Part shown: piece after piece, positions 1-37,900 of the stretch
Position numbering within the stretch: the first letter of the stretch is position 1
How the letters are laid out: the number at the start of each line of letters is the position of its first letter
Translations under genes and position numbers: made by a program
DNA from: Capitulum mitella
Taxonomy: Eukaryota; Arthropoda; Thecostraca; Pollicipedomorpha; Pollicipedidae
DNA length: 64,000 nt
NCBI GenBank assembly: GCA_030062745.1
Contig: CP099845.1
Coordinates: 18,888,903 to 18,952,902 of the forward strand
Direction: 5' to 3'
Notes under the pieces: model-generated
Seen by the model: only the letters and a program-made list of their open reading frames with translations
Told to the model about the DNA's origin: nothing
The model's database searches: none

Positions 1-1576
1 ACTTATAAATCGTTGTATTTCCTGGCAAAATGAGCTGCCAAGATAACTGGCATGACACGCCATAAGCCTTGGTATCGAAACAGGCTTAATGCAGCCACCG
101 GCGTGCAGGTCCGTTTGCGCAATGCGCAGTGTGGATGTGGTGATGGCTGCCCGTCCTCATTGCTCGCCCTGGCCTCTTCCCCGTTTCTGACCGGGTTCCA
201 TCTTCCGTCTCAGTCGTCTGTCTTCTTTCCTGTTCCAGTTCTAGTCCAGGTCCTCACTCGTGATTCATCACTCCCGTTCCCTGTCTGGTGTTCTCCATGC
301 CTTTCTCCTAAGCAGTAATCCTCCTCCAGGCCCTAGTTTTCTGTTACGTTCCCCGCTCGAGTTGCGTTGTCGCTTTTTCCTGTCGTGCTTCCCAATCCTG
401 GTTCCCTATCTAAGTTCTTGTCTCTTATCTCGGTCCCGTAACGTTCCCCTCGACTGGTCCACGGTCTGGTCATGGTTCTGCTCTCGCCTGTTGAGTTCTT
501 TGCCTAACTTTGTTTATTTCCGGCGACATCTGTCTGGATTTGTCTTCAGCGCCACAATTAGCGACAGTTCTTTTTCAGCGGTTTTGAAATCCTGGAATCG
601 GAGGTTGCCTTAAATTGCAGCACGGTTGTATAATTTTATTTTCAGCTATGAACAAAACGAGTGATTTCGTATCAGGACAGCAAAAGAATGCGCTTGACGT
701 CGGCTACGATTTCGTCTCAGAAATGCATTCCTTTGCTTTCGAAATTGCAGTGCAAACGGAAACAGTGCGGCATTCACCAATATTCTCACTATGATCACGT
801 GCCGTGGCCACCCCGTCCGGTGGACGGGGTCGGACCTTCAACACGATTCGCGGTCGGTACTTTGCTGCGTCTGATGGCGTGGCCGCCGATTTCGTATTGC
901 CACCGGTTTCCGAGATCGGCACCTAGTTAGCCTTGTAGAGCGGTAGTTTTTGCCGTTGGCGCGAGAGACACACGCCACGTGCCGTTCTCAGCACGCATCG
1001 TTTGACGCACGATACGATTCTCCGATCGATTATCTGTCTATTGCTCCCGGTTTCACCTCGGTGAGACGCGGCTTCACCGAGATGGAACGCCTCAAAGCGG
1101 ACCCAGTCGATCGCGCGAGAAATTTTTTCGTGTTTTCCGAGTTAACGTGTTAACCCTATGGGAAACGTTTGTGCATGCCACGTGCCGCTACGGCGTCGCA
1201 CGCACACCACATTTTGGCAAAATTTAAGTTCGCACGAAACTAGTCACATGATCAAACTTCGGCCACGTGCCACAGATCATCTCTGTGCACCAGCTCGTCA
1301 AAAAGTGGCGGACACGTGCCATCTCATGTTTCATATTGCGGATTTATCAAATAACAAACTTTGTTTCCTGTTTCCCACATTGAAACTGGTTGACAGAATT
1401 CGGGGAGCTAAATTCAGCTTTGGAGGGGCCAAGATCCAAATTGGCAGGGTATGGCCCTCGCAAAAGAATACAGTTCTACACCCCTGCTTCTTACTAACGA
1501 AGTACAACTGTCGTAAAACGACGCAAACTCTGGAAGATGCTGATTTTGAAAAACGATGCTTCGCTTGCTGGGCACT

Positions 1577-1617
1577 CTCAGCTGCTGTTTTTCCTACCAG
1601 GAAAAACAGCAGCTGAG
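1577..1617. repeat. Perfect 19-bp hairpin, only in copy 1
   Basis: The arms CTCAGCTGCTGTTTTTCCT (1577-1595) and its exact reverse complement (1599-1617) are separated by the 3-nt loop ACC. The paralogous position in copy 2 (about 32235-32280) keeps most of the left arm but has unrelated sequence for the right arm and is shorter there. The hairpin therefore arose in copy 1, most simply by template switching. Confidence 0.85.
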
Positions 1618-1668
1618 TATGTCAAAAAACTACAAAAAAATGCTATGTAGCAGCCTGCGCTCATTTCT

Positions 1669-1672
1669 TTAA
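1669..1672. other. Empty TTAA target site of MITE family B
   Basis: The flanks CATTTCT and AAGAGTCG around this TTAA correspond to the sequences flanking the family B element at 32298-33520 in the paralogous block. This is a natural pre-insertion site. Confidence 0.85.
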
Positions 1673-2707
1673 AAGAGTCGTCACAGTTGTCACTGTTCGT
1701 TGTTCACTGTTAGGGGCTCACTCTAGTTCACTTCCGCGCCGCGTAAATGACCAGGCAAAAATCGCAATATTCACAGCTGCAAAACTCCCACAACGCTGAC
1801 AGGATCATCCGCGTCCGGGAAGACAAGACAGCTCCGTCAGGAGAAGCCACATTTTGGATCACATCAACACGTGCAGTCATTGCAAAAGGCTTCTGCCCCC
1901 ATAAGTTCGGGAGAAGCTATTTGTGTCAGCGATTCCAGCAGGGCGGTCGCGGCTCCAGCTTCTCCACTTCCAACAGACATTTCGGCGCCAAGATCAGCGT
2001 TTCAACGGCGCTACGTCGACTGTCCATTTCGATGACATCGCCGAAGCTGAGGTCATGCAAACTTGCAATGCAGCTGCCGTGAAATCAGCCGTGGTGGTCG
2101 TCTGCTCCTTGTTCCGGCCGCGCAGCCTCCCTCGTCGCGCCGACCATCGGCTGCCATGTTTGCGAGTCCGGAGCTGGCCTGCGCACCAAGTGCAATTCGA
2201 GGCCCAACGCTGCCCTACGCGAGCGTGCCAGAGTCTGCCAAATACCACTGAAGGACAGCCGGCCAGCCGGCCATCTGGTCGCCAGCGCCAACTGTGGCGC
2301 ACAGTGGGCAGTAGCAGTTTGAGTTTGAACGCCAGATGTCTCTAGCAGGTCTGGTCATCGTGGCCTTCGGGACTTTGACCCGTCTCTGGAAAGAGAAGAA
2401 AGCAAGCTATTTACTAGCTGTAGAGTAAACGGGATGTGCAAACATGATGCCGCTGCCCTGCCCTGCCTGGTTTTGTAACAGACTCGCAGAAAAACAGCTC
2501 TAACAGAAAAGAGAAATGAATAATACTTTCGTGCAACTGCTACTCCACCAGTTTCGGAAAATCCAAATCAGTTATGTCCTGAAACCGGAGGATTCAGTCC
2601 AACGTTTTCTTCTCGGATACTGCCATTTCATGCGCCACGAAGACAAGGCTAGACAGATTACGCCAAGAGGCTGACCGACATCCGCGATTTCCATCCGGAT
2701 TTCAAGC

Positions 2708-2907
2708 TCAGCCCCGGAGACGCTCTGCCGGCTCTCTGCGAACGGCGGCAGCGTCGGCGGCCGGAACTGCCGCAGCTCTCGCACCTCTCTTGCCCGTGTA
2801 GGCGTGCTTCCTGAGCCGGTCGTAGAGCTCGTCCTGCCGCTGCTGGCCGCTGTACTGGCTGGCGTTGGAATGCGGCAGCGTGTTCAACTTGCCCGACGGC
2901 AACGTGT
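2708..2907 (-). pseudogene. Duplicated last exon of the uif-like gene
   Basis: The minus strand has an acceptor (CCCACCCAG before 2907), then the same reading frame as the terminal exon at 34521-34771: DTLPSGK, the [20 protein letters not shown] stretch, then KHAYTGKRG. It differs from that exon at about four bases up to KRG (two synonymous, P to S, M to L). A candidate donor GTGCGA follows at 2779-2784, giving a 123-nt phase 1-1 exon (2785-2907). Read through, the frame ends at a stop at 2708-2710, in a different frame from the other copy because of a one-base indel. It lies about 32 kb downstream of the gene on the same strand, so it could be a dead copy or an alternative terminal exon; the sequence alone cannot decide. 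Confidence 0.7.
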
Positions 2908-3257
2908 CTGGGTGGGCGTTACGGAACGGTCAGTAGGGGGAGTTGGCAGGCGACACGTAGGACGATCGGAGACCAAGTAACGCACTGTACGACCCCTATG
3001 GGTTCCATGTGTGTATTCTGTCTTCTGGGTTATCAGTCAGTCGTTGAATGCTGATCATCACACGATAAGCACTTCTTCGATCACACGCGTGTACGTCACA
3101 AAATCAGCATGCCACGCTTTTGGCTTAGTTCCAAAAACAGGGAACAGCATCCCCGGAAAGGACAGCACCAGCCTTGCGAAATTTTATTAGAGGCCAACGT
3201 CCCTGCAGTGTGGAGGAAACGATGGGACTGGTACAATACAGCTTTAAAACAGGACAC

Positions 3258-3305
3258 GACATGAGGTGGGAGGTTGGTGATGAGCAGACTGGACACCATC
3301 ACACA
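3258..3305. repeat. Solitary minisatellite unit at duplication junction
   Basis: The stretch reading GAGGTGGGAGGTTGGTGATG followed by AGCAGACTGGACACCATC matches the 52-bp unit tandemly repeated at 38641-38825, inside an intron of the uif-like gene. It starts exactly where homology between the duplicated blocks ends. Confidence 0.75.
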
Positions 3306-3718
3306 CATTTTGACCTTGACATCACACCTTAACGTCAATTTCGGGGATGACCCACTTATATCTTAATGCGTTCTATCTGTTGACGTCCATCACTTAGTGT
3401 CAGGTGGCGCCACCTACTCGTAAAAATATGCCTAAATTTCCAATACCCTTGTGTTCTCTGACATAACTATTCGTACCTACACATACCCATAAAAGGTACG
3501 TAGTTTTCCATCGCTCATTTTTACCCTCACCTTTGAACCTAGGGTCAATTTCGGCGGATGACGCCCGTAGTTTTCCATGTGTTGCCTATTGTTACCCATC
3601 ACGTGGTAGCACGTGGCACCACCTTCTGTTAAAAAGATACGTAAATATCCAATATTGGATTCGATCTTGACGTCTGACCTTGAGGTAAATTTCGGCGGAT
3701 GACTCACCTAGACTTTTG
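3306..3718. repeat. Imperfect tandem units with AATTTCGG..GGATGAC
   Basis: Three partial units begin near 3336, 3546 and 3684 with a shared AATTTCGGCGGATGAC-like core. The first two continue into a shared segment (GTGGCGCCACC / GTGGCACCACC, then TAAAAA, then AATATCC-like). Spacing is about 210 and 138 bp, so the units are unequal. No coding potential is evident. Confidence 0.55.
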
Positions 3719-3815
3719 TGTAGAGATGCACCGGATCGGGGTTTTTGTGATCCGGCCAGATACCGCATATGCCGGATTGGGGTGCCGGATATCCGGCTGG
3801 ATACCGGATATTATG
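3719..3815. repeat. CCGGATA-rich hAT-type MITE end
   Basis: The segment opens TAGAGATGCACCGGAT, a start typical of many hAT-like MITEs, and then repeats the motif CCGGATA/TCCGG. A related segment in inverted orientation lies at 20930-21005 next to an AT microsatellite. Confidence 0.5.
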
Positions 3816-5320
3816 CTTACATGTTCTTATTTACTATTTCTATTGAAAGAATGAAACCGAAAACTGAATAAAAAAGAATGTGGGAAACTGAAAAAAATTA
3901 GTGAAAAATGTCGACAGTTTGTGAGTCATTCCCTAGTGCATAAACCTACTGCGAGGTTTCCATAGGTTTCCTTGTAATAAATAAACCGATGAGCAAAGAA
4001 CACAACAATAATAGCGGAGCTCACTATCTCCCACTGCAGGCAAAGGTATTGGTGTAGCCACGATTCCAGAAATAGGGGGGGGGGGGAGAAGCTGGCTGCA
4101 ATCCACCAAGAACATATAGGGCGAGGGGTAGAAATGACTTTTTCTGGCGTTGCATGACAATCTACGGTTGAAAGTCCTTTTGTTGGATTGTTGAGTGCAA
4201 GAAATTGTGTCTTCAATGGGAACTTCCTATTTCATACCTTACAAATAAGAGGGACAAATCGTCACTTCTGGAAAACCGCAGGTGACATGGGCACCCATAG
4301 GCAAATACCATTACAGCACCTTCGGAGAACTAGAATACCTGACTTCACAAGCTTTCTTTACGGTTACTTAAGTATGCCTCTTGAAGTAACGAGTGGGTAC
4401 CAAGACACGAAGAAATGAAAACTTTTTGACTACAGATATTTTTTTAATATTACATGTTTCACCACTGGTATCTGGCTCGTGCATGTTAACCACAGTTGGC
4501 CTTAAAATCGTGCAAAATGTGGGAGAAATTTCAATTTATCTGCAGTCAGAAGGCAATATCAAAGCAAGGTGGCAGGGCGATTGTCGCGAGACTTGCCCGT
4601 GAGAACCCGGAACGGCCCAAATGATTTATCTGGAGGCGCAGTGAGCCCTTTGGGACCCACGGCAACTGTTAACAGAACGCTGGCAACCCTCTAGAGTCGT
4701 GGAAATGTTTCCCATGTTGGCAATCACCATCAAACAACCAGACTGAGCATTAACCCACGCAGTGGAAGGGTGTTTCGCACTAACGAGCACTGGAAGGGGG
4801 TCTAAAAGTGCCCTCTCCGATCTCGGCAACAGAAAGGGCTAGAAACATGAAATTTTATGGACAGGGTGGGGACGAAAACGATTTACGTTGTGTGCAATTT
4901 TCCTGACCCTACGTCAATATCTTCAGGTTCAAATGGGGGAAAAGGTCAATTTTGGACACTTTTTCGACCCGTACAGGTCGTTTTGTACAACTTTTCGAAC
5001 AAAACGGAATGTTTGTTGGGCCGTTAAAACGTGGAATACAACAACGTCCATTCATTTGGCGTCTTGACTGGGATTTTGGGTCCAGGTCATGTTAGGTCAT
5101 TGACCTATGACGTCATTTTTTCATCTTCTACAGATCAGATTTCGAACAACACGTAGCTGTTTGAGAGTAAATGAGGGCGCAACATGTATCTTTTGGCGTA
5201 TTTTCAGTGAAGGTAGCCAACATCGGTACATCTGGTCATTTCCAGCGTTTATGTTTCTGTATGTATGTATGTATATTTATATATGTATATGCATGTGAAT
5301 ATCACTGTGCCAAATGTGTT
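3816..5320. other. No gene seen
   Basis: I see no supportable exon. There is a run of 12 G at 4075-4086. The part from 4860 to 5120 contains AGGTCA and TGACCT half-sites (for example around 5085-5110) reminiscent of the interiors of MITE families A and B, so it is probably derived from an older mobile element. Confidence 0.4.
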
Positions 5321-5549
5321 TTAAAAAAGTAGGGCCTTTGAATGCGTGTTTCGCACAAATCGATGTATTGCAAAGCAAATCTGGACCAGGTCACAAAAAA
5401 CTGCCCTTGACCTTTGATAACCTTAACCTGAAATGACTGGTATATATGTATGTGTATCCAAGTGCACACACTTGTCTTTTTTAGGGTCTTTGAATGCATA
5501 TTTCATACAAATCGACATGTCGCAGAACAAATCTGAGATAGGTTACAAG
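5321..5549. repeat. Two direct repeats, about 153-bp period
   Basis: The segment 5321-5394 (GGCCTTTGAATGCGTGTTTC and onward) is repeated with divergence at 5474-5549 (GGTCTTTGAATGCATATTTC). The DNA between them holds TATATGTATGTGTAT repeats. It is non-coding, just upstream of the transposase relic, and may belong to that or another mobile element. Confidence 0.6.
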
Positions 5550-5892
5550 ATTATTCAGTTGCCAAGTTATTGCCAATTGGCAAGTCATTCAATTGCCATA
5601 AACGTCACAAAGCAACAGCAACCAACTCCGATCCGTTCTCAAGATATTCAAGGAAAACAGTTTGCGGGGGGGGGCACAAAAAGACCCCCTTCCAGCGCGC
5701 GTGTTAAAAGACAGCTGCAGCTGATTCGAGCTGTAAAAACAACGGGTGTCATAACGCTTTCTGGCTGAAAGGTTTGGAATCTCTAGAACGTACGTGGCAA
5801 AAATAATTGGTGGCCAACAGGGTTCAGTACCGCAAGAGCAAGAGGTCACTCCAGGTCACCCAAAAACAAGAGGTCACCCAAAAGACCCGCAT

Positions 5893-6521
5893 TTGGAAAC
5901 TGTCGCGCGCATCATACGAAATCGGAAAGAATATGGCATCGCCATGGACGACGAAAGCTACTTCACCTTTCACCAGAGCCATATGCCAGGAAACCTTGGG
6001 TACTCTGTTGGAGCACGTGGAGAGTGCCCAGCAGAAGTACAACTGAGGCCAGACAGCAAGTTTCCACGTAATCTTTTCGTGTGGCCCGCCATCTTTCCAA
6101 GGGGTGTGACAAGTCCGGTTATCATGCCGAGTATGGGTAATGTTGATGGCAACGTGTACCGTGGGAAGTGAGTGGGAGATGTGCTCATCCCATATTTGGA
6201 TGAGAACTGTTTGGACAGGGACATGTTGATCTGGCCAGACTTGGCCAGCGCTCGTTATGCGAAGAAAACGCTCAAGTTTCTGGAAGAGGCCAGAGTGCTG
6301 TATGTAGTGCGTGACAGCAATCTCCCTGTGTGCCCTATGTGCGCCCTCCTGAAGACATCTGGGGCATCATTACGCAGAGGATGTATCAGGGAGACTGGTG
6401 CGCAACATCCAAAGTCGCCCTAAAGCACTGGATGAGCCAGGTGATCGCTGCTCTGGACCTAGAAGTACCGCGTAAAATGCTGGTACGCGTGCCCAGTCGC
6501 GTGCGTGTTGCCGACAGATGA
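5893..6521 (+). pseudogene. Broken Tc1/mariner-type transposase
   Basis: The plus-strand reading matches the catalytic half of a Tc1/mariner-superfamily transposase of the kind with MDDESYF and WPDLASAHYAK signatures. Here I read IAMDDESYFTF (first catalytic Asp), FVWPAIFPRG, NVDGNVYRG, then MLIWPDLASARYAKKT (second Asp) and, in a shifted frame, VRPPEDIWGI (third acidic residue). The frame is interrupted by an in-frame TGA at 6169-6171 and by a frameshift near 6330. The N-terminal DNA-binding half is not recognisable upstream. It is a non-functional fossil; I could not define terminal inverted repeats. An AATAAA lies downstream near 6604. Confidence 0.75.
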
Positions 6522-7169
6522 GAGGTAATGGAGATGATCCATTAGGCAAGAACTGACCGCAACGTCGATGGCTACATTTCTGCAACGTTTAATGTTCATA
6601 CAGTAATAAACGTGCTTACATTATGACTTTAAATACTGTCTGATTTCCCAGTGCCCACACGTTATAATTTCCCTTAATGCATTTGTGTCAGAGAATTTGG
6701 GAAGGATAAGAAGTATTTGGAAAAAAGGAAGATAATAAATCATAAGATGGACTGCTGACCGGATGCTGGCTATTGTTTCACAGCTTTGAACCTGAGTCCC
6801 ATTCTTGCAAAATATGTCCGAACCCTCCCGGACCAATACAGGAAAGTACTGGTTCCATGGTCTCCAGACCAACCTGGAACTGCCAGTTACATTGACCATC
6901 TAATACAACATCCGTTTACATCCTTTTTACATCCTTACATCCTTTTTTTAATACATCCTTTTCACATTCAACGCAAATGAACTGCATCACGTCGAAGTGG
7001 TTGTACTCTTGTTAGCCGCAAATGGAGAGCAGTTCAAGGCATGATCCGTTGCATATATATACTTATATATATTATATTATATTTTATATATTATATACAT
7101 ATAGCACCAACCACGACTAAGTACAGCAACCCTTACAAAATACTGAATTTGCCAGCCTTGGGCGCCGAC
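6522..7169. other. Intergenic, tetraspanin 3' flank
   Basis: There is no gene here. It contains a small tandem run of CATCCTTTTTA-like units (6907-6965), a candidate minus-strand poly(A) signal ATTAAA (6947-6952) for the tetraspanin, and a TA-rich microsatellite-like stretch at 7050-7102. Confidence 0.4.
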
Positions 7170-7487
7170 TTAACTCAATCGAAGCAGAGCTGAGTATTGT
7201 GGTGCCGCACTGATCGAGCCCCACGATTCGGCTGTGGTAGTATGACGCTGGATGGAACTCCTGATGGCGCAAGAAAAGATCATGGACAGGAAGAGGAATG
7301 ACACTACTCCGACAGCGACCCAACCGACCACTTTGCCGTGCTTGTCTATCGTGTCTTCCACGTGAGACAGGCATCCGGTTCCGAAGAGTTCACCGGGCGT
7401 CCCACTGTTGTTCTTGTAGCAGGAGTCCGGTTTCCGTTTGTTGTGCAAGCCCCAGTCATTTGGACTATACACTCCACAGCATTCAAG
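7170..7487 (-). CDS. Tetraspanin exon 3 (large loop, TM4, tail)
   Basis: The acceptor TTGTCATTGCAG precedes LECCGVYSPNDW. The exon encodes the rest of the large loop, TM4 (VVGWVAVGVVSFLFLSMIF) and a 30-residue cytoplasmic tail rich in S and T, ending at the stop at 7170-7172. A further intron in the tail cannot be excluded. Confidence 0.9.
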   Translation of the reverse strand, partial: LECCGVYSPNDWGLHNKRKPDSCYKNNSGTPGELFGTGCLSHVEDTIDKHGKVVGWVAVGVVSFLFLSMIFSCAIRSSIQRHTTTAESWGSISAAPQYSALLRLS

Positions 7488-9632
7488 CTGCAATGACAAG
7501 CACCACATTAATGCTGTGGTTACCAAATATTATATATTAAATAAATACCAAAAAACCTGACATTTCCCCATTTGCTGCAAAAGGTGGATAGGGCATTTTC
7601 ATTGAGCTTCCTCCATGCAATATATTTAGAACGGCAATACCAAGCGCTGACTGTCAAGCCTGAGGTTCACCTTCATCCGTCGTCTGCCGGTGCACAGCTC
7701 ATCAAAAGTTTGCCATACAGTAACGGATGCATACCAGGTATGCATAATTGCTGCTTGCGCAGACGTTGCACCAGGGGCGGCTCTGAGGGTGTGAGAGAGA
7801 TAATGCACATGGGTTGGCCCGAGATATGGGATGAAGGTGGAAAATACTGATGGAATGCATCGCATTCGAACTTCGTATTCCACGCTTAACCCTCTTCCGG
7901 CAAGGGGGCTGAATCCGCCCCCTCGAGTTTTTTGCTTGCCAATTTCAGGGTTTTTGACGCAGCTTCAGGAAACTTGGTCACTTTCCTAGCTATGTTTTCT
8001 ACGTACTATGACAAAATTTTGTAATCCTATTTTGCTCAGGGGCGGAGCCAGGTAACGTTTTTGGGAGGCACCTCAGGCCATTTTTGGCCCTGTTGAGGAT
8101 AAAAATAAAATACATGCCAAAAACAGCGTTTTTAAGACAGAACTTAAGACTTCATATGGGTCTACAGCTAAATAGTTGGGCAACACACAAATATAAATTT
8201 GTCCATCTGACAGATAGACCGAGGCCTCCTGTAGATGGTTGAAACGTTGCGTCATTGTGCGTAAACACATGCTTTTCCTCCGGTATAAAGAAGGCTGTCT
8301 GTAATTATTTTCATGATCATATTTGCGCATAGTGCTGACAGGAAGCAATTTTTGCACTTTCAAGTGTCCCCCTTAGCGTCTGGCTCGCCATTCAGAAATG
8401 AAAGTGAGGTAGCTGAGGGAAAGGAAGCGCGGAATCCCTCACGTTTTGCTGCGTGAAGTCCCACGCGGCGGTGAAGGCGCCGTCAGTGCCATAATCGGCC
8501 ATGGTCTTGTTCATTTCGTTGCCGATACCGTCCAGGATTGCGTCCGTCCCCAGGATGAAACCGGCCGCCGCCCCGGCCGCCGTCAGCACGAACATGATGG
8601 CAACGAGGCAGAAGAACGTGCCCAGTAGGCATTTGCTCTCCTGAAAGAAACGCGAGAGTTGTCATCGATCAGGTCACAGGTGACCTCAGTGCTGTGCAGA
8701 TTTGTTCCTTCCACCAATGCGCACTCAGTGGATGGTCCCGACATCCCCTCGAAGGTTCAATGCAGCCGTCAGTCACGAGGCTGACGTCCTCGAAATGTTA
8801 GAAACAGCCTCCCCAGCTTCTTAAGACTGAGCATGCTCATGCTGTCCGTTATCGACGTCTGTGGACAGTGCACGAGTTTGCTAGCAGCGATCGTTGCGGC
8901 ATCAAACGTCGGATGGAAAACTTTGATTTGTTTTGCGGGATAGTATGAAGTGCCGATGTCTTTCCGATTAAGTTCAAGCCGGGATACACTTAAAAACATC
9001 TCGCGGTACCTCGATTTCGTATGATGGGAACTTCCGCAAAAATAATTGAAATCCATTTCATCCATCGGCATGCAATCTGCATGGATATTATCTTAGGCAA
9101 TCTTATATTCTATAAGCCGATGGCGACATTTCCAGTTTCCAAACAGCCCAATAGGAAGCCCGGGGGACAAAGGACATCCCCACATGCCCAAAAAGACCCC
9201 GAGCAAAACGCGAATGCAGCACATACGTACGAACCCGTCTTCCGAGCAGCGAGCCAGTTAATTCGCCTTACGTTGAGCCTGACGAGTTCCTCAAGGCTAT
9301 AGCTTGTGTTTCCAGAGATGACAAGAGGCCAGGTACCTGTTGGCACAGCCTGCCTGTCGGAGGGAGGCGGGCGGCGGCCCACTGCCCTCTGATGAACCTA
9401 CCCTGAGTGCTCTGCAGCAGCCGAGAAAGCTGATGATGACGATGATGGAGCCCGCCGCAATGATGAGGATGGCCGTGCCGCGATACAGTTCCGTCGAGAG
9501 CAGGCTGATTAACCTGGAGTTGCCGTCGACCAGCGTGGTGATGCCGATGGCCAGCAGCCCGGCGCCGCCGACTAGGATAGCGAAGTTGACGAGGGCGAAG
9601 ATGTATTTCATGAACCTGCCGCAGCAGTCCAT
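7170..9632 (-). CDS. Tetraspanin, three coding exons
   Basis: A complete tetraspanin of 248 aa, in the usual 220-300 aa range: four-pass membrane organisers of protein microdomains. Exons 9402-9632, 8443-8640 and 7170-7487 join in phase 0. TM1 is about residues 12-34, TM2 53-74 followed by the conserved GCC motif, TM3 82-108 and TM4 196-218. The large extracellular loop has the CCG motif (146-148), PDSC (163-166) and GC (181-182), so four cysteines for two disulfides. Juxtamembrane cysteines in MDCC, SKC and SC could be palmitoylated. The start at 9630-9632 has a good context (ACCATGG). Intron 2 carries a truncated MITE. Orthology to a named member cannot be assigned by eye. Confidence 0.92.
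7886..8215 (+). mobile_element. MITE family A, truncated copy A1
   Basis: It starts TTAACCCTCTTCCGGCAAGG and follows family A through CAGGGGCGGAGCCAGG and AAATAGTTGGGCAA, then loses similarity near 8215. It lies in intron 2 of the tetraspanin. Confidence 0.75.
8443..8640 (-). CDS. Tetraspanin exon 2 (TM3, start of large loop)
   Basis: The acceptor TTTCTTTCAG precedes ESKCLLGTFF at residue 78. The exon encodes TM3 and the first helix of the loop, and ends AWDFTQQN before the donor GTGAGG. Its length of 198 nt is 66 whole codons. The W-D-x-x-Q pattern continues into LECCG in exon 3, as in the family. Confidence 0.92.
9402..9632 (-). CDS. Tetraspanin exon 1 (TM1-TM2)
   Basis: It encodes residues 1-77, from MDCCGRFMKY to SFLGCCRALR. 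The 3' end is the donor AGG|GTAGGT. In-frame codons extend upstream of the ATG to about 9722, but ACCATGG and the family's short N-terminus favour this start. Any 5' UTR intron was not identified. Confidence 0.9.
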
Positions 9633-9924
9633 GGTGAAGGCAGGAAGGGAAAAGAGTTGCAGGTAACGACCACGACGCGGCAGCCGTCGAGGGAGCTTTG
9701 GGTTGCAAAGCACGTGGCTCACTGTTAGAAGGTTTCTGTATCACTGTGTTATCAGAGCCCTGATGACCCTCACAGATAAAGCCTACGAATCAGAGCATTA
9801 GTCAGCACACAACTATCGTGTCGCTGGGGTGTGACCAGCATGTCGCCAAGAGCGGGCCGGAACAAACTAAGTCTCCCTCGGAATGGAAAACTCCTTGGCT
9901 TCATTTCTGGTTCGTAAAGAAATG

Positions 9925-13920: not shown

Positions 13921-13981
<61 letters not shown>
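13813..13981. repeat. Compound (ATCT)n(CT)n(AT)n microsatellite
   Basis: About 37 bp of ATCT units, about 55 bp of CT and about 75 bp of AT/GT. The AT tract resumes after the adjacent MITE (15194-15210), so the MITE sits inside it. Confidence 0.95.
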
Positions 13982-13984
<3 letters not shown>

Positions 13985-15193: not shown

Positions 15194-15199
15194 ATATAT

Positions 15200-26024: not shown

Positions 26025-27737
26025 TGTTCGACTGTGTGCCGTGAGATGCATTAGTGCAAGTGAGCGGTTTTCGTTGTTTTAGGAGAGAAAAGAGACTATA
26101 CGTGTCTGTTTCCTTTGGACTCATTCGTTTGTTATATTTGTCTGTTTACTTTGACAGGTATGACAAATCTGTGTCAGGTCCCCAACAAGACCGGCAGATC
26201 CAGAAGCGAACAGGCGACAAATGAAGAAGTCATATATTGGAAGAAGATATATTAAATACTTTTGGGTGAGATGTTCACCAGGACCTTACTCCTCGCTCCG
26301 AAAAACACCGAGGGATCTTAATCAGGCGGGATATGGTAGTATTGCCGACATCGCCTATCACGCCGTCTGCCGCGTTCACCCCCTCATGCTCTGACTAGAA
26401 ATGTGGGTAGGGGGTTTGGGTTTGGGGAATGACGTGTAAGTGTGAATAGCTGTGAGATTGTAGATGGCAGATTGTCGGTATGGGATGGGAGGGGGGAGAA
26501 GAGGTGTCGCTCCACCACTTGCGTCAATGCCGCTGAATCCTTGCATCAGAGGGCAGCATTGCCACTCGCTCCGTGGCCGAGACTATTGTGGGTGGCGGTA
26601 GAAGGTGGTTGTTTGTGTTGTGGTGATCTGATTGTTTCGTAAATGGTTGGAGCCGTTTTCGGCGGGTTGTTGGTTGGTGGTTTGGGCCTAGAGCTGTAGG
26701 AAATCGGGGGGGGGGTGGCAAGGGAACCATGGCTGCCGTGCGGGGCTGGAAATTTAACGTTATTTATTGGTCGCAAATGAGCATCAATAAAAATTTTCGA
26801 AATTCCGAAATGAAGTGGGCGAAATCCAAGGAGTTTCGGTTTTGACGAGGGTTGCACTCATCGCAGCCTCTTCCGTGGTGAAATCATGGCTACGCACCTG
26901 CTTGGGTATGAGTGAGTGAGTAACCCCCGACTGGCCACGCTCGGTCCACAGGACCGTAAAGCGTGGCCTGTCGAGGGTATCGTGGATTTGGCTTGGGCTC
27001 AAGGCGGCGTCGGCCCGACGGCGTTCAAGTGTCTGCATACAGGACGTTTCCGAGTGGGCGCTGTCACGGCGCCGTGCGATGCAGACGGTCATCAAGCGGA
27101 GGTGCTTTTCTGTTGACGTCAGACACTTATGGAGATTGGCTGCACGCGTTTTAGGCAGGAGCGTTGGAGGATCAAGAAAAAGCGTGTGGTGGTGATGATG
27201 GTGGGAGGGGATGGGAGATAAGGCGCAGGGACGTTCTTTCCCATCGGTCTAACGATAAATGTCCCAAAAAGCGTAGGGTGGGGAGGCATGGACGCGCGAC
27301 CCTGCAGTTCCTACGCCCATAGTTTTAACAAGAAGGTTCTGTTATCTTGCCCGGATTATGAGGTTGAGATTATGAGATTGGGGATGTTGCGCCAGCATAG
27401 TTTAGTCATGACTAAGCCATCCGCCATGAGGTCACAACATTTAGCCTCTTAAGTGGATCATAATTTCCTGTTCGGTACATCGTTTTATTTAGATAGATAC
27501 ACAGTATCTCGTGGTTAGTCAGTGGGTGATTCAAAGAAAGACACGTGCAGCCGTAAATTTTACGTGGACTCGGGGGCATGTGTCAAAGCCCGGAAAACAG
27601 CCGCCTTCAGTACACAGCAGAAAACGCCGGAAATCACCGGTTTTCATTCAGCAAACACCAGAAATAATCACCAGGGGATGCATGCTGATATGACGACACC
27701 CGCCGGATTCTCTCCTTGACGTCAGTTCGGCGCCAAT
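26025..27737. other. No gene seen
   Basis: G-rich plus strand with GGGTTTGGG-like runs at 26404-26430 and GATGGTGGGAGGGG at 27198. A motif ATGGCTACGCACCTG near 26886-26900 resembles a hAT-type terminus without a visible partner. Confidence 0.4.
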
Positions 27738-27981
27738 CAGGCACGTAGCCAGGATTTTCCTCAAGGAAGAGGGTCGGGGGTATACGAAAAACCTGCATTT
27801 TTTGTAATTGGCCTCATGTTTAGCGCGCAAAAAACAACATATCATATTTGTTTTTGCAGCATATATGATCACTGCTGCGCATTATGATCACATGCTGCGA
27901 AATCGCCTAATATCTAGTGCAGGTCACTAGCAGGCATGAAAAGGGACATGACCCCCATGACTCCCCTTGGCTACGTCCCTG
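27738..27981. mobile_element. Small hAT-like MITE
   Basis: A 244-bp element starting CAGGCACGTAGCCAGGATTT and ending CCCCTTGGCTACGTCCCTG, its imperfect inverted counterpart. The 8-bp flanks GCGCCAAT and GCGTCACT agree at 6 of 8 positions. No coding capacity. Confidence 0.65.
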
Positions 27982-28245
27982 GCGTCACTGGAGGCCACAA
28001 AAGCATTTTTTACACATCTGCGTTCACACAACAACGGATCACTAGTGGCGACCTTCGCATCTTCACGCAGCACCGGGTGGTCATCTAACCTCACGCACCA
28101 GCAGATTGCCAGGGAAGATCTTTTAATTCTCATACCCAGACTGGTGTCCGCATTCCAACGCACAAACCGTCAATCAACGACGATGAACAAGACAGCAGCG
28201 AACATCGATAGGACGTGGCTAAACAATACTCGTGTTTACGAGTCC

Positions 28246-29459
28246 TTAACCCTATTCCCGGCAGGGGGGCCTGAATCCGCCCCTACTCGGGTTTTTTGCT
28301 TGCCAATTCCAGGCTTTTTAACGCAGCTTCACGAAACTTGGTCACTTTTCCTAGCTATTCTTTCTACGTGCCGTGACAAAATTTCAAAATTCCTTTTTGC
28401 TCAGGGGCGGAATCAGGTAAAGTTTTTGGGAGGCACCTCACGCCATTTTTGGCCATGTTCAGGGTAAAAGGAAAATGCCTGCCAAAAACAGAGTTTTAAA
28501 GCTAGAACTTAAAACTTTATATGGATGTATAGCTAAATAGTTGGGCAATGTGCATACGAAGTTTTGTTTATCTGAGGTCACTTTACAAGGCCAGGTCAAG
28601 GTCAAACATTAAAATTTGTTTTTTTGCAATAATTTCGGCGCCGTTTTTTCCAATGCCAAACCCGGAATACATATGACGTAGAAGGGTGCCTTCTACTTGC
28701 GTAGCAAGTTTCAGCTTGATATCAGGTCGGGTCACAGAGCTATGACTTAAAATGTCAGTGCGCGTACCCTATATCGCAATAGCCATAAAATGAAATTTTT
28801 GAAATAGAGTGAATTCAAATGATTGAAAACGTTTACAGATAATATTAAATTCACACAAGATCATTCCAAGTGACCCCAAGGTCACTGGAGGTCATTTAAG
28901 GTCAAAGGTTACAAGTTGATCTGAGAAACGTGTGACCATGACAGTTCCCCCTTTTTCATGTCCTTGGCGCCGCTTATGCTAACATTATACAAACATTGTA
29001 ATGCGATTTTTACTTCTTTAGTATAACATGACTAGCAGAAGCCAAAAAAGGGTGTTTGCCTCTTTTGTTCATTCAGTTGCTAGAAAACTAATCCTCCTAT
29101 TTTTAAATCGCTGTGAACGCCCATGAATTTTCTCAAAATTTCAGATTTGCGGACCCATGGTAAAAGCTATATCCATAATCTCTCGATTCATGCCAGTTTC
29201 ATCGAAATCGGTCCATAAACAACGGAGTTATAAGAAGTCCAAAAGTACCCCCATTTTGACATTTTTGTCCTCCCGTATCCACAAATTTCAAAATTTTGAA
29301 AATTTCTTTTTACAGAAATATAGTTTACGTCACGGCAAATCGATTGCCGTTTGTTGCGATAAAATCGGACGTGTAGTTCTCGAGATCTCAGGGGGGGGGC
29401 GAATCCGCCCCCCTGCCGGGAATCGACCATACCGTCTAGCCCTTCGGGAATAGGGTTAA
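28246..29459 (+). mobile_element. MITE family A, full-length copy A3
   Basis: A 1214-bp copy with exact TTAACCCTATTCCCGG at the left and GGGAATAGGGTTAA at the right. Interior half-sites include TCAAGGTCA at 28596-28604, the extended half-site preferred by monomeric orphan nuclear receptors such as FTZ-F1 and ERR types. Confidence 0.9.
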
Positions 29460-29649
29460 GTAGCAGTCTGCAAAACACTATCAGCAAGGGGGATACTGGA
29501 TACAGGGATATCGGTAGCATCGTCGATATCTTTTTTGATAACTGTGATCCGAGTGATAGCGGGATGATGTGGTGGATCATAGCTCGTGCTAAGCGTAGCT
29601 TGTTGATGGGACTCCGATTCCTTTGCCCGACTGAGCAATTCCGGGTAAG

Positions 29650-29821
29650 GTCTGGTTTTGTGGCGGTAGTGAAATGTGTCGCCAGGGGTGCAGCGCGGCC
29701 GTATGGCAGTCGGCTAGACCGTATGCTGACCAGTTGCCAGCTGGCCAAACATCGAAGTGACACGAACCCGTGTTGCCAGGACGGGAAGCCCAGTGCTCTA
29801 ATCAACTGAACTATCGACAAC
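29650..29821 (-). repeat. tRNA-derived SINE head
   Basis: The minus strand from 29821 reads GTTGTCGATAGTTCAG, with an A-box-like TAGTTCAGTTGATTAGAGCA (29794-29813) and a B-box-like GGGTTCGTGTCAC (29757-29769) at normal pol III promoter spacing. The anticodon stem does not pair well, so it is not a functional tRNA. The body continues leftward toward MITE A3; its far end is not defined. Confidence 0.6.
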
Positions 29822-30152
29822 GTTTACAGTAAATATTATGATGTTATCAGAAATTTCATGGGGTATAAGACTCTGGAGTTCCACGGCACCAGCGCCGTCG
29901 ACACCTAAACTGTTTTTTTTTCCTTTTTCATGGGCCAGACACCAATTTCCATAACATGGAAGCGTTCACAGGCCACTCATCTTCGCTCGCCACTTCACAA
30001 TCGAAAGTATCCGGGCGCAGTGGAGCGGCTGTCCCTGTTGGCTTCTTTGTGACGTCCGAGAACCTCTGCTTTTCTCAGAGATCAGGGCTATGAACTTGGT
30101 GACGTCAGTCAGGTTCACAGGGTCTTGTAGATCGCATAAAATTCTAAGACAG

Positions 30153-30215
30153 ATTATATATATATATATATATATAAGACATATATATAAGTCATATATA
30201 TATATATATATGTGT

Positions 30216-30253
<38 letters not shown>

Positions 30254-30255
30254 AC
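30153..30255. repeat. AT microsatellite with GTCTT/AAGAC interruptions
   Basis: Three AT tracts are separated by AAGAC, AAGTC and GTGTCTT. The interruptions are in both orientations, so the whole tract is self-complementary. Confidence 0.9.
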
Positions 30256-32297
30256 AATAAAGCTGACGAATGTGGCTTGTGGGGTGGCACGGCTGCGTAA
30301 CTGGTCGCCTGGCCACGTCCGAAAAATAACATGGATCAGGATACCTTGTTTGCCCAAAACAGCAACATGGAGCAAGGCCGCTTTCTACAAAGATGTCAAC
30401 CGCAAAGCAGCCTGGCTGCAAAAGGCACTTGCTGGACAGGAAGTATCCGTTAAGAGCACTTTGAAGGGCCCAGGGCACACCCGGCTGGGACGGAGGCAGC
30501 GTTTTGCATGGCGTTCCCGCTCACGTCGCCACTGCACGCGGGCGGGACCTGCACTTCTTCCACCGTGTGCTGACTCCGCCACCTGTAGTACAAGTGAAAA
30601 ACTCGGGGTTGCAAGAAAGGCCGTGCTTGAAAGTTAGTCTTGTGAGGATAGAAATATTGCCGCCAACACCCTTAAATCATTGCATGTCCTGGCAAAATGA
30701 CCTAGAAAGATGACTGCCATGACACTCTATAAGTCCTGGTATCGAAGCAGGTTTAGTGCAGCTACCCGCGTGCTGGTCCGTTTCCGCGATGCGCAGTTTG
30801 AATGTGTTAAAGACTGCCCGTCCTAATTGCTCACCCTGGCCTCTTCCCCGTTTCTGACCGGGTTCCATCCTCCGTTTCAGTCGTCTGTCTTCTTTCTTGT
30901 TCCAGTTCTAGTCCAGGTCCTCACTCGTGATTCATCACTCCCGTTTCCTGCCTGGTGTTCTCCATTTATTTTTGCGAACCAGTAATCCTCCTCCAGGCCC
31001 TAGTTTTCTGTTACGTTCCCCGCTCGAGTTGCGTTGTCCCTTTTTCCTGTCGTGCTTCTCAATCCTGGTTCCTTATCTAGATTCCTGTCTCTTATCTCGG
31101 TCCCGCAACGTTCCCCTCGACTGGTCCATGATCTGGTCATGGTTCTGCTCTCGTGTGGTGGTCTCTGTCTCATTTTGTTCTTCTCTGGCGACGTCTGTCT
31201 GGATTTGTCTTCAGTGCCACGATTAGCGACAGATCTTTTTCAACGTCTTTGGAATCCCGAAATCGGTGGGTGCTTCAAATTTCAGCACGGTGGAACAATT
31301 TCATTTTCAGCTATAAACAAAAAGACTGGTTTCGCATCAGGACGGCAAAATATTGTGCTTGACGTCGGTACCGATTTCGTCCCAGAAATGCACTCCTTTG
31401 CCTTCGAAATTGCAGTGCGAACGGAAACGGTGCAGCATTTGCAAATATTCTCACTATGATCACGTGCCGTGGCCACCCTGTCCGGCGGACGGGCTCGGAC
31501 CTTCAACACGATTCGCGGTCGGTACTGTGCTGCGTCGGATGGCGTGGTCGCCGATTTCGTATTGCCACCGGCTTCCGAGATCGGCACCTAGTTAGCCCTG
31601 CAGAGCGGGGGTTTCTGCTGTTGGCGCGAGAGGCACGCGCCACGTGCCAATATGCAAGCGTCGTTTGTCGCACAATGTGATTGCTCAGTCGATTATCTGT
31701 CGACTGCTCTCGGTTTCGTCTCGGTGAGACGCGGCTTCACCGAGATGGGGCGCCACAAAGCGGACTGAGTCGATAACGCGAGAAATTCGTGTTTTCCGAG
31801 TTAACGTGCTAACCCTATGGGAAACGCATGTGCATATTGCGTGCCGCCACGCCGTCGCACGCACACCTCATTTTGGCAAAATTGGAACTCGCACGGAACT
31901 GGTCACATGACCAAACTTCGGCCACGTGCAACACACCATCTCGGTGCGCCAGCTCGCCAAAACGTGACGGACACGTGCCATTTTATGTTTAATAATGCAG
32001 ATTTATCAAATAAAAAAAACTTTGTTTCCCTTATCAAAACTACCGGAAAATATTAGGGGTGAGCCAAATCTACCTTTGGAGGGGCCAAGACACACATTGG
32101 GGAACGTGGCCCCGCAAAACAATACAACTCCACTCCCCTGCTTCTTACTACCGAAGTACAACTGTCGTAAAACGACGCAAACTCTGGAAGATGCTGATTT
32201 TGAACAAAAAATGGTACTTCGCTTGCTGGGCACTCTCAGCTGATGTTTTTCCCACCAGGACACAATGCATGCCATGTAGCAGATTACGCTCATTTGT

Positions 32298-33520
32298 TTA
32301 ACCCGTCCCCGACTGGGGGGCAGCTGACTGCCCCCCCCCCCGAGGTTTTTCTGGGATTGCGAGAGAACCAACAAACACAGAGTCATGAAACTCTGTGTAC
32401 CTTTTTCTTAGTCATTTTTACACCTTGTGTCAAAGTTTTCATCTCAGGTCAAGTCAGGTTTCTGACCTAGGTCAGGTCAAACAGACCTATGTCAAAAAAA
32501 GTTAAGCGCCTTGTAACTTGTTTGGAAAACAAGGTATCGCAATAATATTTTCAAGGATTAGTAATCTTGACAGATGCAACAAATCTGCTACCTCACATTT
32601 TTCGGAATTTTCCGGGTCATTGATTTACGGTCAAGCCCATTTTTTAAAACGTCGTCGTTTTTCTCAAATTGACGGAATATTTCATAACATTTTTAGCGTG
32701 GAGTCAAGCAGACATTTAGTTACAGTCATTGGGAAGAGTATCAATGACTTCCAGCTATTGACCTGAGGTCAGGTCACGAATAACTGTAGTGAGCCAAAAT
32801 GTACCACTGTCAAAATCGGCGATGGATTACTCAGAATGGGTAGGAAAAGGCAGAACTAGCTTGCACAGACGTAAGTAATACTGGGAACCTTAAAAAGTTT
32901 GAAAAAATTGCATATTTTAGAAGTAAACAGGCTCTCGCGAATAAAGCTCCTCCAACTTTGTGGATTGGTGACTAATCAATGTTTCCAAAATTTAAGCATG
33001 ACAAACAATCACAAGAATCACTAAAATCAACAAAATTTACATAGATCGTCTTTCTTCACAAAAATAAAGGAACGGCTAAATTAGTTCCCGTTAATTTGTT
33101 AGTGCATACGGCAGCGGCGCACGCCTACAGCTGGCGCGAGACTTGTCGTGTCTTTAACTCAACGTTTCGATGCATATATTGAACAAATCTGGGAAATTAG
33201 ACGTGTATCGGCATCCGCGGACCATTACTTGTGCGCTGATGCCTTTACCTATGCGTTATTAGTCACAGCCCTTGAGATTCAGGCTATTTCTCGGTCTGAT
33301 GCAGTCGGCTATGAGAAAACATATATAGGGCGTAAATTGCTTACATAGTAGCTAAAACTAAAAATGAGACCAGTTTCGAGCTCTAGTCGTCACGAGCTTT
33401 CCAACGGTATGCTTATTTTTATCGTGTAACCAACCGTTCGTGAGTTAGAGAGGGGGCGGCCAACTGCCTTTCCCCCAGTCGCGCATGTTCGAAACTGACC
33501 GACATTCGTGCGCGGGGTAA
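32298..33520 (+). mobile_element. MITE family B copy B4, with known empty site
   Basis: It begins TTAACCCGTCCCCGACTGGG and ends GTGCGCGGGGTAA; the right TTAA has mutated to GTAA. The paralogous position in copy 1 has a single TTAA (1669-1672), which fixes the element's boundaries to the base. Confidence 0.9.
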
Positions 33521-34520
33521 AAGAGCCATCACAGTTGTCACTGTTCATTGTTCACTGTTAGGGACTCACTCTAGTTCATTTCCGCGCCGCGTAAATGACC
33601 AGGCAAAAATCGCAATAGGTGTGACAAGTTGTAGAACTCTCACAACGCTGACCGAATCGTCCGAGTCCGTAGAGACAAGAAAATTCCGTCAGGAGCAGCC
33701 ACATTCCGAACCACACCAGCACTCACAGTTATTGCAAAGTACTTCTGCCCCATAAGTTCGGGAGAAGGTATTTGTGTCAGCGATTCCAGCAGCGCGGTCG
33801 CGGCTCCAGTTTCTCCACTTCCAACAGACATTTCGGCGCCGAGATCAGCGTTTCAACGGCGCTAAGTCGACTGTCCATTTCGATGGCATCACCGAAGTTG
33901 AGGTCATGCAAACTTGCAATGCAGCTGCCATGAAATCAGCCGTGTTGGTCGCCTGCTCCTTGTTCCGGCCGCGCAGCCTCCCACGTCGCGCCGACCATCG
34001 GCCGCCATGTTTGCGAGTCCGGAGCTGGCCTGCGCACCAAGTGCAATTCGAGGCCCAACCCTGCCCGCCTCGAGCGTGCCAGAGTCTGCCAAATACCACT
34101 GAAGGACAGCCGGCCAGCCGGCCAGCCGGCCATCTGGTCACCAGCGCCAACTGTGGCGCACAGTGGGCAGTAGCAGTTTGAGTTTGAACGCCAGATGTCT
34201 CTAGCAGGCCTGGTCATCGTGACCTTCGGGACTTTCACCCGTCTCTGGAAAGAGAAGAAAGCAAGTTATTTACCAGCTGTAGAATAAATGGGGTGTGCAA
34301 ACAACAAAAAAACCGCTGCCCTGTGGTGCCTGATTTTACAACAGACTCACAGAAAACCAGCTCTAACGGAAAAAAGAAATGAATGATTCTTTCGTGCAAC
34401 TGCTACTTGACCAGTTTCGGAACAGCCAAATCAGTTATGTCTTGAAAACGGAGGATTCAGCCAAACGTTGTCTTCTCGGATACTGCCATTTCATGCACCA
34501 CGAAGACAAGGCTAGTCAGA

Positions 34521-34771
34521 TTACGCCAAGAGGCTGACTGACATCCGCGATTTCCATCCGGATTTCAAGCTCAGCCCCGGAGACGCTCTGCCGGCTCGCA
34601 GCGAGCGGCGGCAGCGTCGGCGGCCGGAGCCGGCCTCAGCGCTCGCACCTCTCTTGCCCGTGTAGGCGTGCTTCCTGAGCCGGTCGTAGAGCTCGTCCTG
34701 CCGCTGCTGGCCGCTGTACTGGCTGGCGTTGGAGTGCGGCAGCGTGTTCATCTTGCCCGGCGGCAGCGTGT
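34521..34771 (-). CDS. uif-like exon 12: terminal tail exon
   Basis: Acceptor CCGCCCACCCAG. It encodes [20 protein letters not shown], then [18 protein letters not shown], and runs to a stop at 34521-34523. After KRG the reading becomes Arg/Ser-rich and is not matched in frame by the duplicate at 2708-2907. A candidate phase 1 donor (G|GTGCGA, 34643-34648) would end the exon at 34649 and place the true C-terminus in another exon, perhaps outside the window. Confidence 0.75.
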
Positions 34772-34885
34772 CTGGGTGGGCGGTGTGGAGCGGTCAGTAG
34801 GGGGAGTCAGTAGGCGACACGTGGGACGGTCCGGTCGGAGGCCGGGTAACACACCACATGGCTGGTGGCCCCTCTATGTTCTGTA

Positions 34886-34923
<38 letters not shown>

Positions 34924-37900
34924 GTGTTTTGGATTATTAGTCAGTCGTCGCACGTTGATCATCACACGACGAGCACTTCTTCGATCACACGTGTGTGCGT
35001 CACAAAATCAGCATGCCACGCTTTGGACTTAGTTTCAAAAACAAGAAAGCAGCATCCCCGGAAAGGACAGCACCGGCCTTGCGGAATCTTATTAGAGGCG
35101 GACGTCCTTGCAGTGTAAAGGAAACTATGGGACTGGTACAGCATACCTTTAAAACAGGACACGTTGCACGGTACGTAACGAATATCAGACACACCAGACT
35201 GCATCACAAAGGGAGCCCGAATGCCTGACGCCGGCCCGCGGATCCACGTACCCCTGAGGAAGGCCTCGTTGTAGAAGTTGGGCATTTCCCAGGCCTCGTC
35301 CTCCTCGTCGTAGTAGTGGGCGTAGTTGGAGTGGTGCGAGGGAGCAATGCTCTCGGCGTAGGGGGCCGGCGCGCCGTAGTAGAAGTTCACCTGGCGCAGT
35401 CACCGAACGGTAAGCTTTTGCATGTCGCGTTGGTGCACGCCAGGCGTTGCATCCGCTTGAAATGGCATGGCTGCAGCGAGCTAAAATACAGCGAGCATGA
35501 AAGACGCACCAGCCCGAGCTGTATGCAAAGCACGTTGATGTGCACCGCTTTGGTGCAATTAGTTCTACACAGTATATGACTTCCATACATCGTTGGCATC
35601 CCGCATAATAATTTTTAATCACTCCAGGCCTTCCTCATTGGGACTTAACCCTGACAGCACAATCGTTCGAAATCACGTGGTTTTGCGAGGCTCGGCGCTA
35701 CGGCTCAGCCTACAGCACCTGAGAAGCCGCGTCCGGTGGCAGCGTCATGGCCTTCTGCACCGGCTCCTGCTGCTTCTTCTTCTTGTTGGCTCTGGCGCAG
35801 ATCATCCAGACGAAGAGCACACATATGATGGCCACCAGCACGAAACCGGCTACGCCGCCGGCGATGTAAGCGAACTTGGACTTTTCGGCACAGTGCTCCC
35901 CTGCAGGCAAGCGACGGTGTCAGATGGAACGAGGCTTGTGTCACCAGGTGTCAGATAGTATGCAGCGGTATCTGATGGAGCCAGGCGGCGTCAAGGGGTG
36001 TCAGTGCGTGTTTGGCAGCGTCAGATGGTGTCGGGAAGTGGCCAGCAATGACAGACGGTGTTACAAAACGTCAGACAATCGTAGGTGGTGTAGATGAAGT
36101 CAGGGGGTGTCAGGTGAAATTTGATGGCGGGATCAACCGGCGATGTGCTTAGGTTAGGCCTAAAAGAAGGGATGAATAATGGAATGGCTCAGTGGAGGAA
36201 TATTAAGCCTGATGCATTAGCATTTGCCTTTATTTATTTCCGCTCCAGCCTGTGGGTGAGCCCATGCCTGCAGCCGCTGACCTGTGAACGAGCCCGTGCA
36301 GGTGCAGGACGGCAGGCCGGTCCGCTCGTCCTTGCTGCAGGCGCCGCCGTTGTCGCAGAAGTCGTGACAGCGGTCGGTGCAGTTGAAGCCGTCGCCGCTG
36401 AAGCCCAGCTTGCACTCGCAGTGGAACGTGCTGCTCGCCGCGTTGATGAGGCAGATGGCGTGCGCGTCGCACGTGGTCCGGTTGCCGGCGCCGTCGCACG
36501 GGTTCGTGCACTGCTCTTCGGAGGAGGCTCCCACCTGGCGGGCCCGGCCGTGGTCAGAACGCAGTCGGACCACCGTCTACGCTGTGGTCCCGGAGAAGAA
36601 CCGGTATGCATGGTCCTGTGTGTCGGGAACCACGCCCGGACACTCGGCGCGGAAGGACGTCAGGTGCGAAACGAGAACAGTTTCTGCACCTGGGCCAAAT
36701 GAGCGTTTAGCTGCTCCTCCGAATAAAACTCAGTTTTAATATCGTTGCGCCACTCGAACCTCTACCATTCTCCTTTAACCCTATTCCCAGCAGGGGGGGG
36801 GAATCCGCCCCCCCTCGGGTTTTTTGCTTGCCAATTCCAGGCTTTTTGACGCAGCTTCACGAAACTTGGTGACTTTTCCTAGCTATTCCTTCTACGCGCC
36901 GTGACAAAATTTCGAAATTCTATTTTGCTCAGGGGCGGAGCCAGGCAACGTTTTTGGGGGGCACCTCAGGTCATTTTTGGCCATGTTGAGGGTAAAAGGA
37001 AAATGTCTGCCAAAAACAGAGTTCTTAAGATAGAACTTAAAACTTTATATGAACATATAGCTAAATAGTTGGGCAATGTGCATATGTAATTTTGTTTATC
37101 TGAGGTCACTTTACAAGGTCAGGTCAAGGTCAAAAGTCAAAATTTGTTTTTTTAGAATAATTTCGGCGCCGTTTTTTCAAATGCCGAACCCGGAATATAT
37201 ACGACGTCGAATGGTGCCCTCTATTTGTGTATCAAGTTTCAGCTTGATATCAGGTCGGGTCACAGAGCTATGACCTAAAATGTCAGTGCACGTACCCTAT
37301 ATCGCAAAAGCCAAAAAATGAATTTTTTGAAATAGAGTGAATTTAATTGATTACAAACGTTTACAGATAATATTGAATGCACACGATATCATTCCAGGTG
37401 ACCCCAAGGTCACTGGAGGTCATTTAAGGTCAAAGGTCACAAGTTGATCTGAGAAACGTGTGACCATGACAGTTCCCCCTTTTTTATGTCCCTGGCACCG
37501 CCTATGCTAACATTATACAAACATTGTAATGCGATTTGTACTTCTTTAGCATAACATGACTAGCAGAAGCTAAAAAAGTGTTTTGGCCTCTTTTGTTCAT
37601 TCCGTTACTAGAAAATTAATCCCCCTATTTTTGAAACCCTGTGAACGCCCATGAAGTTTCTCAAAATTTCAAATTTGCATACCCGTGGTAAAAGCCCTAT
37701 CCATAATCTCTCGATTGATGCCAGTTTCATCGAAATCGGTCCATAAACAACGGAGTTATAAGAAGTCAAAAAGTACCCCCCATTTTGACATTTTTGCCCC
37801 CCTGTATTCACAAATTTCAAAATTTTGAAAATTTCTTTTTATCAAAATGTAGTTCACGTCACGGCAAATCGATTGCCGTTTGTTGCGATGAAATCGGATA

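Follow-up and report, generated by a model that had tools for sequence, protein, structure and literature searches.

The 3' end of a uif-like gene is present twice in the 64-kb window of the Capitulum mitella genome that was analyzed here, meaning the whole stretch of 64,000 nucleotides at C7:18888903-18952902. The duplication is real, but its anatomy differs from an earlier sequence-only reading, which had described the copying of a lone exon: the terminal coding exon was copied too, and both exons are a small part of a block of ~7.3 kb. We refer to the copy attached to the uif-like gene as R and to the left copy as L. R and L are on the same strand with an offset of 31,864, which agrees with the downstream position at 32 kb given before. 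Judging from the sequence, L is probably not spliced to uif. Three accounts fit the observations, in which L is an unused copy, serves as an alternative tail or results from an assembly artefact, and sequence alone cannot choose among them.

Anatomy of the duplicated block

Self-comparison of the 64-kb window with blastn returned two co-linear matches, 6-1602 with 85.6% to 30673-32260 and 1670-3258 with 87.2% to 33518-35163. When flanking DNA was added, the block extended to -4078..3258 on the left and 26252-35163 on the right, in a co-linear alignment of ~7.3 kb. A similarity that runs co-linearly over thousands of bases is far beyond chance. L comprises an intron fragment, the final two coding exons, the 3'UTR and downstream DNA, and the copied sequence breaks 88 nt short of the donor of tail exon 1. 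Neither the transmembrane exon nor tail exon 1 was found in L. The right flank of L does not continue into uif, and left of -4078 there was no match to the left flank of R, down to 9700. The features of both copies are as follows:

L block: 1..3258 and on leftwards past the window edge to about -4078, minus strand; uif 3' end and downstream DNA, from blastn and the extension with flanking DNA
R block: 26252..35163, minus strand; attached to the uif-like gene, with 1.2-kb repeat insertions at ~28249-29458 and ~32302-33517, L being without both
EGF exon: 36534-36280, minus strand; PF12947
Transmembrane exon: 35719..35900, minus strand; 42 protein letters given and more following, read by eye
Tail exon 1: 35252..35390, minus strand; VNFYYGAP..., donor CAGGG/gtacgt
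Penultimate coding exon of R (tail 2): 34649..34771, minus strand; 73% amino acid identity to the homologous exon of a gene on C15
Terminal coding exon of R: 34201..34244, minus strand; ETGESPEGHDDQAC and stop, then 3'UTR; C15 counterpart DKNDTTDDSDDQAR and stop
Penultimate coding exon of L: 2785..2907, minus strand; 123 nt, phase 1-1, 41 residues, splice signals kept
Terminal coding exon of L: 2342..2385, minus strand; ETGQSPEGHDDQTC and stop, acceptor with 17/18 pyrimidines at 2385
Proximal 3'UTR segment of L: 1900..2341, minus strand; a putative UTR assigned from the stop, its far end not fixed

On the minus strand, R forms the 3' end of a receptor-like gene with Ephrin_rec_like repeats, the EGF exon, the transmembrane exon, tail exon 1 and the 123-nt exon. 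The latter had been called the terminal exon. It has, however, a plausible donor and is in phase 1-1. Another acceptor follows, cttgctttcttctctttccag, with its last base at 34245; in-phase reading past this acceptor yields ETGESPEGHDDQAC and a stop at 34201. The terminal exon starts at 34244 in R and at 2385 in L, in both cases after ctttcttctctttccag. The 17 of 18 pyrimidines in front of the CAG are the highest count seen and occur at only 3 of the 3621 AGs on that strand (34244, 2385 and 10120). Because this acceptor is strong and the terminal exon of the gene on C15 agrees in length and phase, we take 34244 and 2385 as the starts of the true last coding exon, which makes the 123-nt exon the penultimate one. 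Read-through of the 123-nt exon as the coding end was rejected: R stays open to 34521, but at that place L shows a gap of one base and encodes a different peptide.

Other parts of the earlier description stood up to direct comparison, including the donor at 35252 and the retention of acceptor, reading frame and donor in the copy. From the interval 2708..2907, by contrast, only 2785-2907 is exon and 2708-2784 belongs to the intron. The splice elements kept in L are the acceptor, the frame, the donor AGAGAG/gtgcgag, the second acceptor and the stop, and the donor at 35252 fits the phase of the acceptors at 34771 and 2907 alike. None of 11 polyadenylation hexamers was found in 1500-2341 of L; in R, the region 33400-34200 holds one, GATAAA at 33423, which lies within a repeat insertion. 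AATAAA or ATTAAA motifs are located farther downstream, at 640 and 518 for L and at 31993 and 30970 for R. A search against Rfam gave no match at gathering scores.

Whole-genome DNA searches (477 Mb, 16 contigs) with the exon region recovered L, R and the gene on C15 (74%; 3/3 candidates scored), and those with the UTR exon recovered L and R (2/2 candidates scored). No further close copy of the block was found in these searches beyond L and R, and they lent no support to the idea that the exons are a high-copy repeat. Since R carries two repeat insertions which are absent from L, the two copies have had separate histories. The second insertion (~32302-33517) is flanked by TAA on both sides, with an empty site at the matching place in L. 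The 1.2-kb repeat family of this insertion occurs in both orientations in the window (12105-13329, 13973-15196, 17246-18465 and 32298-33520, the last one being the R insertion). Another 1.2-kb family is found at 9924-11146, 28246-29459 (in R, with an empty site in L), 36775-37992 (in the uif-like gene) and 59028-60228.

The uif-like gene and its relative on C15

In flies, Uif is a large transmembrane protein which can antagonise Notch, and its reported domains comprise 18 EGF domains together with CLECT, CUB, CCP, FA58C and HYR (PMC3340373). The window gene shares with Drosophila uif the EGF-type extracellular modules in front of a single transmembrane segment, as seen by Pfam and by-eye reading. 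CLECT, CUB, CCP, FA58C and HYR were not seen in 37.9-43.3 kb and 48.5-52.7 kb (three frames) or in ten ORFs; the N-terminal part of the gene may lie beyond the window. The assignment as Uif-like is supported by the predicted tail and not by the full domain set. A fly guide RNA described in PMC12867482 targets the Uif cytoplasmic domain and, when translated here, reads YNETYM. The gene on C15 has this tail motif of Drosophila uif exactly (FYNETYMR), and the window gene matches it in part (FYNEAFLR).

The second uif-like gene, on C15 at ~8941.8-8944.2 kb, has its EGF, transmembrane, tail 1, tail 2 and terminal exons in the same order as the window gene, and its terminal exon DKNDTTDDSDDQAR is equal in length and phase. 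Within the genome, tail 1 was found in the window gene and on C15. The barnacle genome duplication described in PMC11331182 may have left the two uif-like genes, on C7 and on C15, as relics (ohnologues). In PMC3340373, a fly construct made from genomic DNA coding for Uif-PA stops ten residues short of the end predicted for the full-length protein, which would fit a short last coding segment. In contrast to Drosophila uif, a second copy of the last two exons is a feature of the window gene. Relatives elsewhere were not confirmed in viral contigs, and there were none in plasmids; a genome-contig match of 16 residues in an Anaerolineae bin was judged to be chance.

Divergence between the two copies

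The 123-nt exons (2785-2907 and 34649-34771) differ at 4/123 positions, two of which change an amino acid, as had been stated before; these are P to S and M to L. Between L and R, we counted 3/44 differences in the terminal coding exon and 18/442 in the proximal UTR. In total, the coding sequence differs by 4.2% and the proximal 3'UTR by 4.1%, while the surrounding non-coding DNA differs by 14-16%. Inside the window, the non-exonic differences amount to 40/399 in the intron between the exons, 56/351 in the upstream intron and 256/1816 downstream (352/2566 altogether, 13.7%). For the whole block the value is 866/5420 (16.0%), a count that leaves out -1400 to -495, which is in effect unalignable (79 mismatches in 133 aligned columns), as well as gapped columns and R 32261-32297. 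A stretch of intron after the 123-nt exon (2619-2738 and 34482-34601) has 5 differences in 120 and is nearly as conserved as the exons.

One constrained and one free copy are expected to differ at half the non-exonic rate. Exons and UTR fall below this level with 25/609 differences (binomial P 0.003 for the in-window rate and 9e-5 for the whole-block rate), also when overdispersion is allowed for (P 0.036 and 0.009). For the coding part only, the corresponding values are 0.11 and 0.04, and 0.18 and 0.11 with overdispersion. The coding sequence alone is therefore not decisive, and the UTR holds most of the signal. The non-coding divergence is patchy, with a variance of 10.6 versus an expected 4.7 per 40 nt, as gene conversion would produce; a gradient of divergence with distance from the exons was not clear (Spearman -0.32, P 0.09).

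A comparison of exon dN/dS with the flanking divergence had been suggested as a check. Across 55 codons we counted 3 synonymous and 4 non-synonymous differences (pS 0.085, pN 0.031). With 3 + 4 changes, these values give no sign of strong protein-level selection. Five of the seven coding differences could be polarised against the gene on C15. Four of these are derived on the L side, among them each of the three amino-acid changes that could be polarised; at one synonymous site L matches C15, so this site changed in R or twice.

The possibility that L is a dead copy, raised in the sequence-only reading, agrees with the polarised changes, which lie mostly in L (4/5), but a plain neutral relic would seldom have exons and UTR so alike. 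In a neutral simulation with half of the divergence placed in L, the frame and the splice sites remained intact in a fraction of 0.21, and they remained intact with at most 7 changes in 0.010. With all divergence placed in L, the values dropped to 0.05 and 0/20,000. Preservation of this kind is poorly explained by a plain neutral relic, unless gene conversion took place, a divergent allele was copied recently, or the copy has a function.

Origin and possible use of the left copy

Partial segmental gene duplications are known to leave a truncated copy, a breakpoint inside an intron and later insertions that differ between the copies. L and R share the truncation, one intron breakpoint and the differing later insertions, but they depart from the general case in that their similarity is higher in the exons and proximal UTR than in the rest of the block. 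We propose that a block of ~7.3 kb with the uif-like 3' end may have been copied and placed ~32 kb downstream between tetraspanin genes. Without the transmembrane exon and tail 1, L would be an orphan 3' cassette left by a partial duplication. The source of the copy would have been a divergent allele that was under selection until recently, hence the high similarity of the exons, or patchy gene conversion would have re-matched the exons of L to the gene. We judge the chances to be even that L is such an orphan cassette, with a divergent allele as its source or with conversion having homogenised it, and otherwise unused.

How far alleles can diverge in a barnacle is illustrated by Balanus improvisus, for which PMC8270832 gives a rough estimate of ~4% coding difference and ~20% at fourfold sites between alleles, and a neutral diversity of 6-12% for the OctA gene, which was studied in depth. 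Both our preferred reading and an assembly artefact gain from these values. In the latter case, L would be the uif 3' end of the other haplotype, joined in by a haplotype switch. The divergence profile of L and R is similar to that of the B. improvisus alleles reported there, a species that need not be representative, and low exon divergence combined with high non-coding divergence is the look of two alleles of one working gene. The uncollapsed haplotype suggested by the sequence-only reading is plausible in the size of the divergence; the right flank of L, with no continuation into uif, is a point against it. Also against an artefact, neither the window nor the adjoining 50 kb on its left contains an N, the region 3259-12000 matched those 50 kb in exons and repeats only, and the tetraspanins next to the two copies resemble old paralogues instead of alleles. 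A haplotype switch exactly at the block ends is possible, and overall we consider this origin of L unlikely, though a serious contender.

The neighbourhood contains the following features:

tetA, a complete tetraspanin gene of three exons: 7170..9632, minus strand; between R and L on the same strand, from PF00335 matches together with ATG, stop and GT-AG edges by eye
Single minisatellite unit: 3262..3305, plus strand; at the right breakpoint of L, 84% over 44 nt (E 9e-8) to an array at 38617-38824

The last exon of tetA matches PF00335 with 55.9 bits and the first exon with 31.4 bits, just below the cut-off of 32.1. Two more tetraspanins, 94-98% alike, are located left of L on C7, at distances of ~9.0-14.4 kb and ~25.3-36.3 kb from the first window position; they form a recent tandem pair, with tetA probably an older paralogue. 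A simple tandem duplication with one tetraspanin per tail would fit the order of the genes, but was rejected: the first-exon dS between tetA and its left neighbour (tetB) is 0.42, compared to 16% for the non-coding DNA of L and R. As this exceeds the divergence of L and R, the tetraspanins probably split earlier, and the block was probably not simply copied with them.

The sequence-only reading had also proposed that the copy serves as a mutually exclusive or extra tail exon. The picture of a single internal exon is wrong, whereas an alternative tail as such is compatible with the low divergence of exons and UTR. Since the copy consists of the penultimate and terminal exons together with the 3'UTR, alternative use would be a choice between two 3' cassettes. 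In such a case, the uif-like pre-mRNA would sometimes splice from 35252 to 2907 and use the two exons and the UTR of L, which involves a 32,344-nt intron across tetA and changes 4 tail residues and the 3'UTR. The two acceptors, the pyrimidine tract of the second, the donor, the frame and the stop are all intact and phase-matched to 35252, coding and UTR divergence is 4% against 14-16% around, and the simulated neutral chance of such preservation is ~0.01. Furthermore, mutually exclusive terminal exons that are reported to be alternatively used occur in tandem clusters in Drosophila pip and in the 3' variable regions of PGRP-LC, as described in PMC9013439. As in these cases, the terminal exons of L and R are homologous and follow one another on a single strand, and their phases and splice signals are compatible; as a candidate case, L and R differ in being 32 kb apart with a tetraspanin gene between them.

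Arguments against this splicing are the complete tetraspanin gene inside the would-be intron and the four amino-acid changes, of which the three that could be polarised are each derived on the L side. In addition, the tail-1 region and the two upstream introns pair less than most shuffled controls do, with 0.935 (R) and 0.995 (L) of 200 shuffles as low or lower in energy. This is a crude test with mononucleotide shuffles and one pair of regions, and competing pairing is reported for some cases but not for all. Occasional splicing to L therefore appears unlikely to us, though well worth considering, and we are similarly doubtful that L is a working alternative 3' cassette, with the R exons skipped and both tails kept by selection. 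If L is used, Uif would gain a second tail and 3'UTR via an unusually distant choice of terminal exons. If it is not, as in our preferred reading, the case calls for caution in species with alleles many per cent apart: exon-specific similarity can be a legacy of allelic constraint, so it does not necessarily show that the two copies both function.

A further candidate is a captured tail, with tetA transcripts reading on and splicing to the L exons to give a tetraspanin with a Uif-type tail. Order and strand would permit this (tetA at 9632-7170, then L at 2907), and tetA is 4.3 kb upstream of L, but the last exon of tetA has its own stop at 7170 and the GTs after TM4 are poor donors by eye, which leaves such a fusion highly improbable.

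The array at 38617-38824, which is related to the single minisatellite unit at the breakpoint, consists of four units in a uif intron. With at most 3 mismatches, the minisatellite core occurs 6 times in the window at an expectation of 0.15, and 5/6 of these are at 3262-3305 and in the array. A genome search with 38600-38900 reported only the array itself; this search is blind to single units, and the unit at 3262 went unreported too. A repeat at 3720-6910 starts ~460 nt from the breakpoint; it recurs in inverted orientation, 89% alike, at 44-50 kb to the left of the window. A search with its segment 4163-5551 gave hits at dozens of sites across the genome (at least 54 matches, from 40 of 3835 candidates scored), and a mariner-like nature guessed for 5589-6427 was dropped, as there was no Pfam match. 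A tandem array with a 32-nt unit is located at 56131-56514, for which the repeat finder listed nine overlapping registers.
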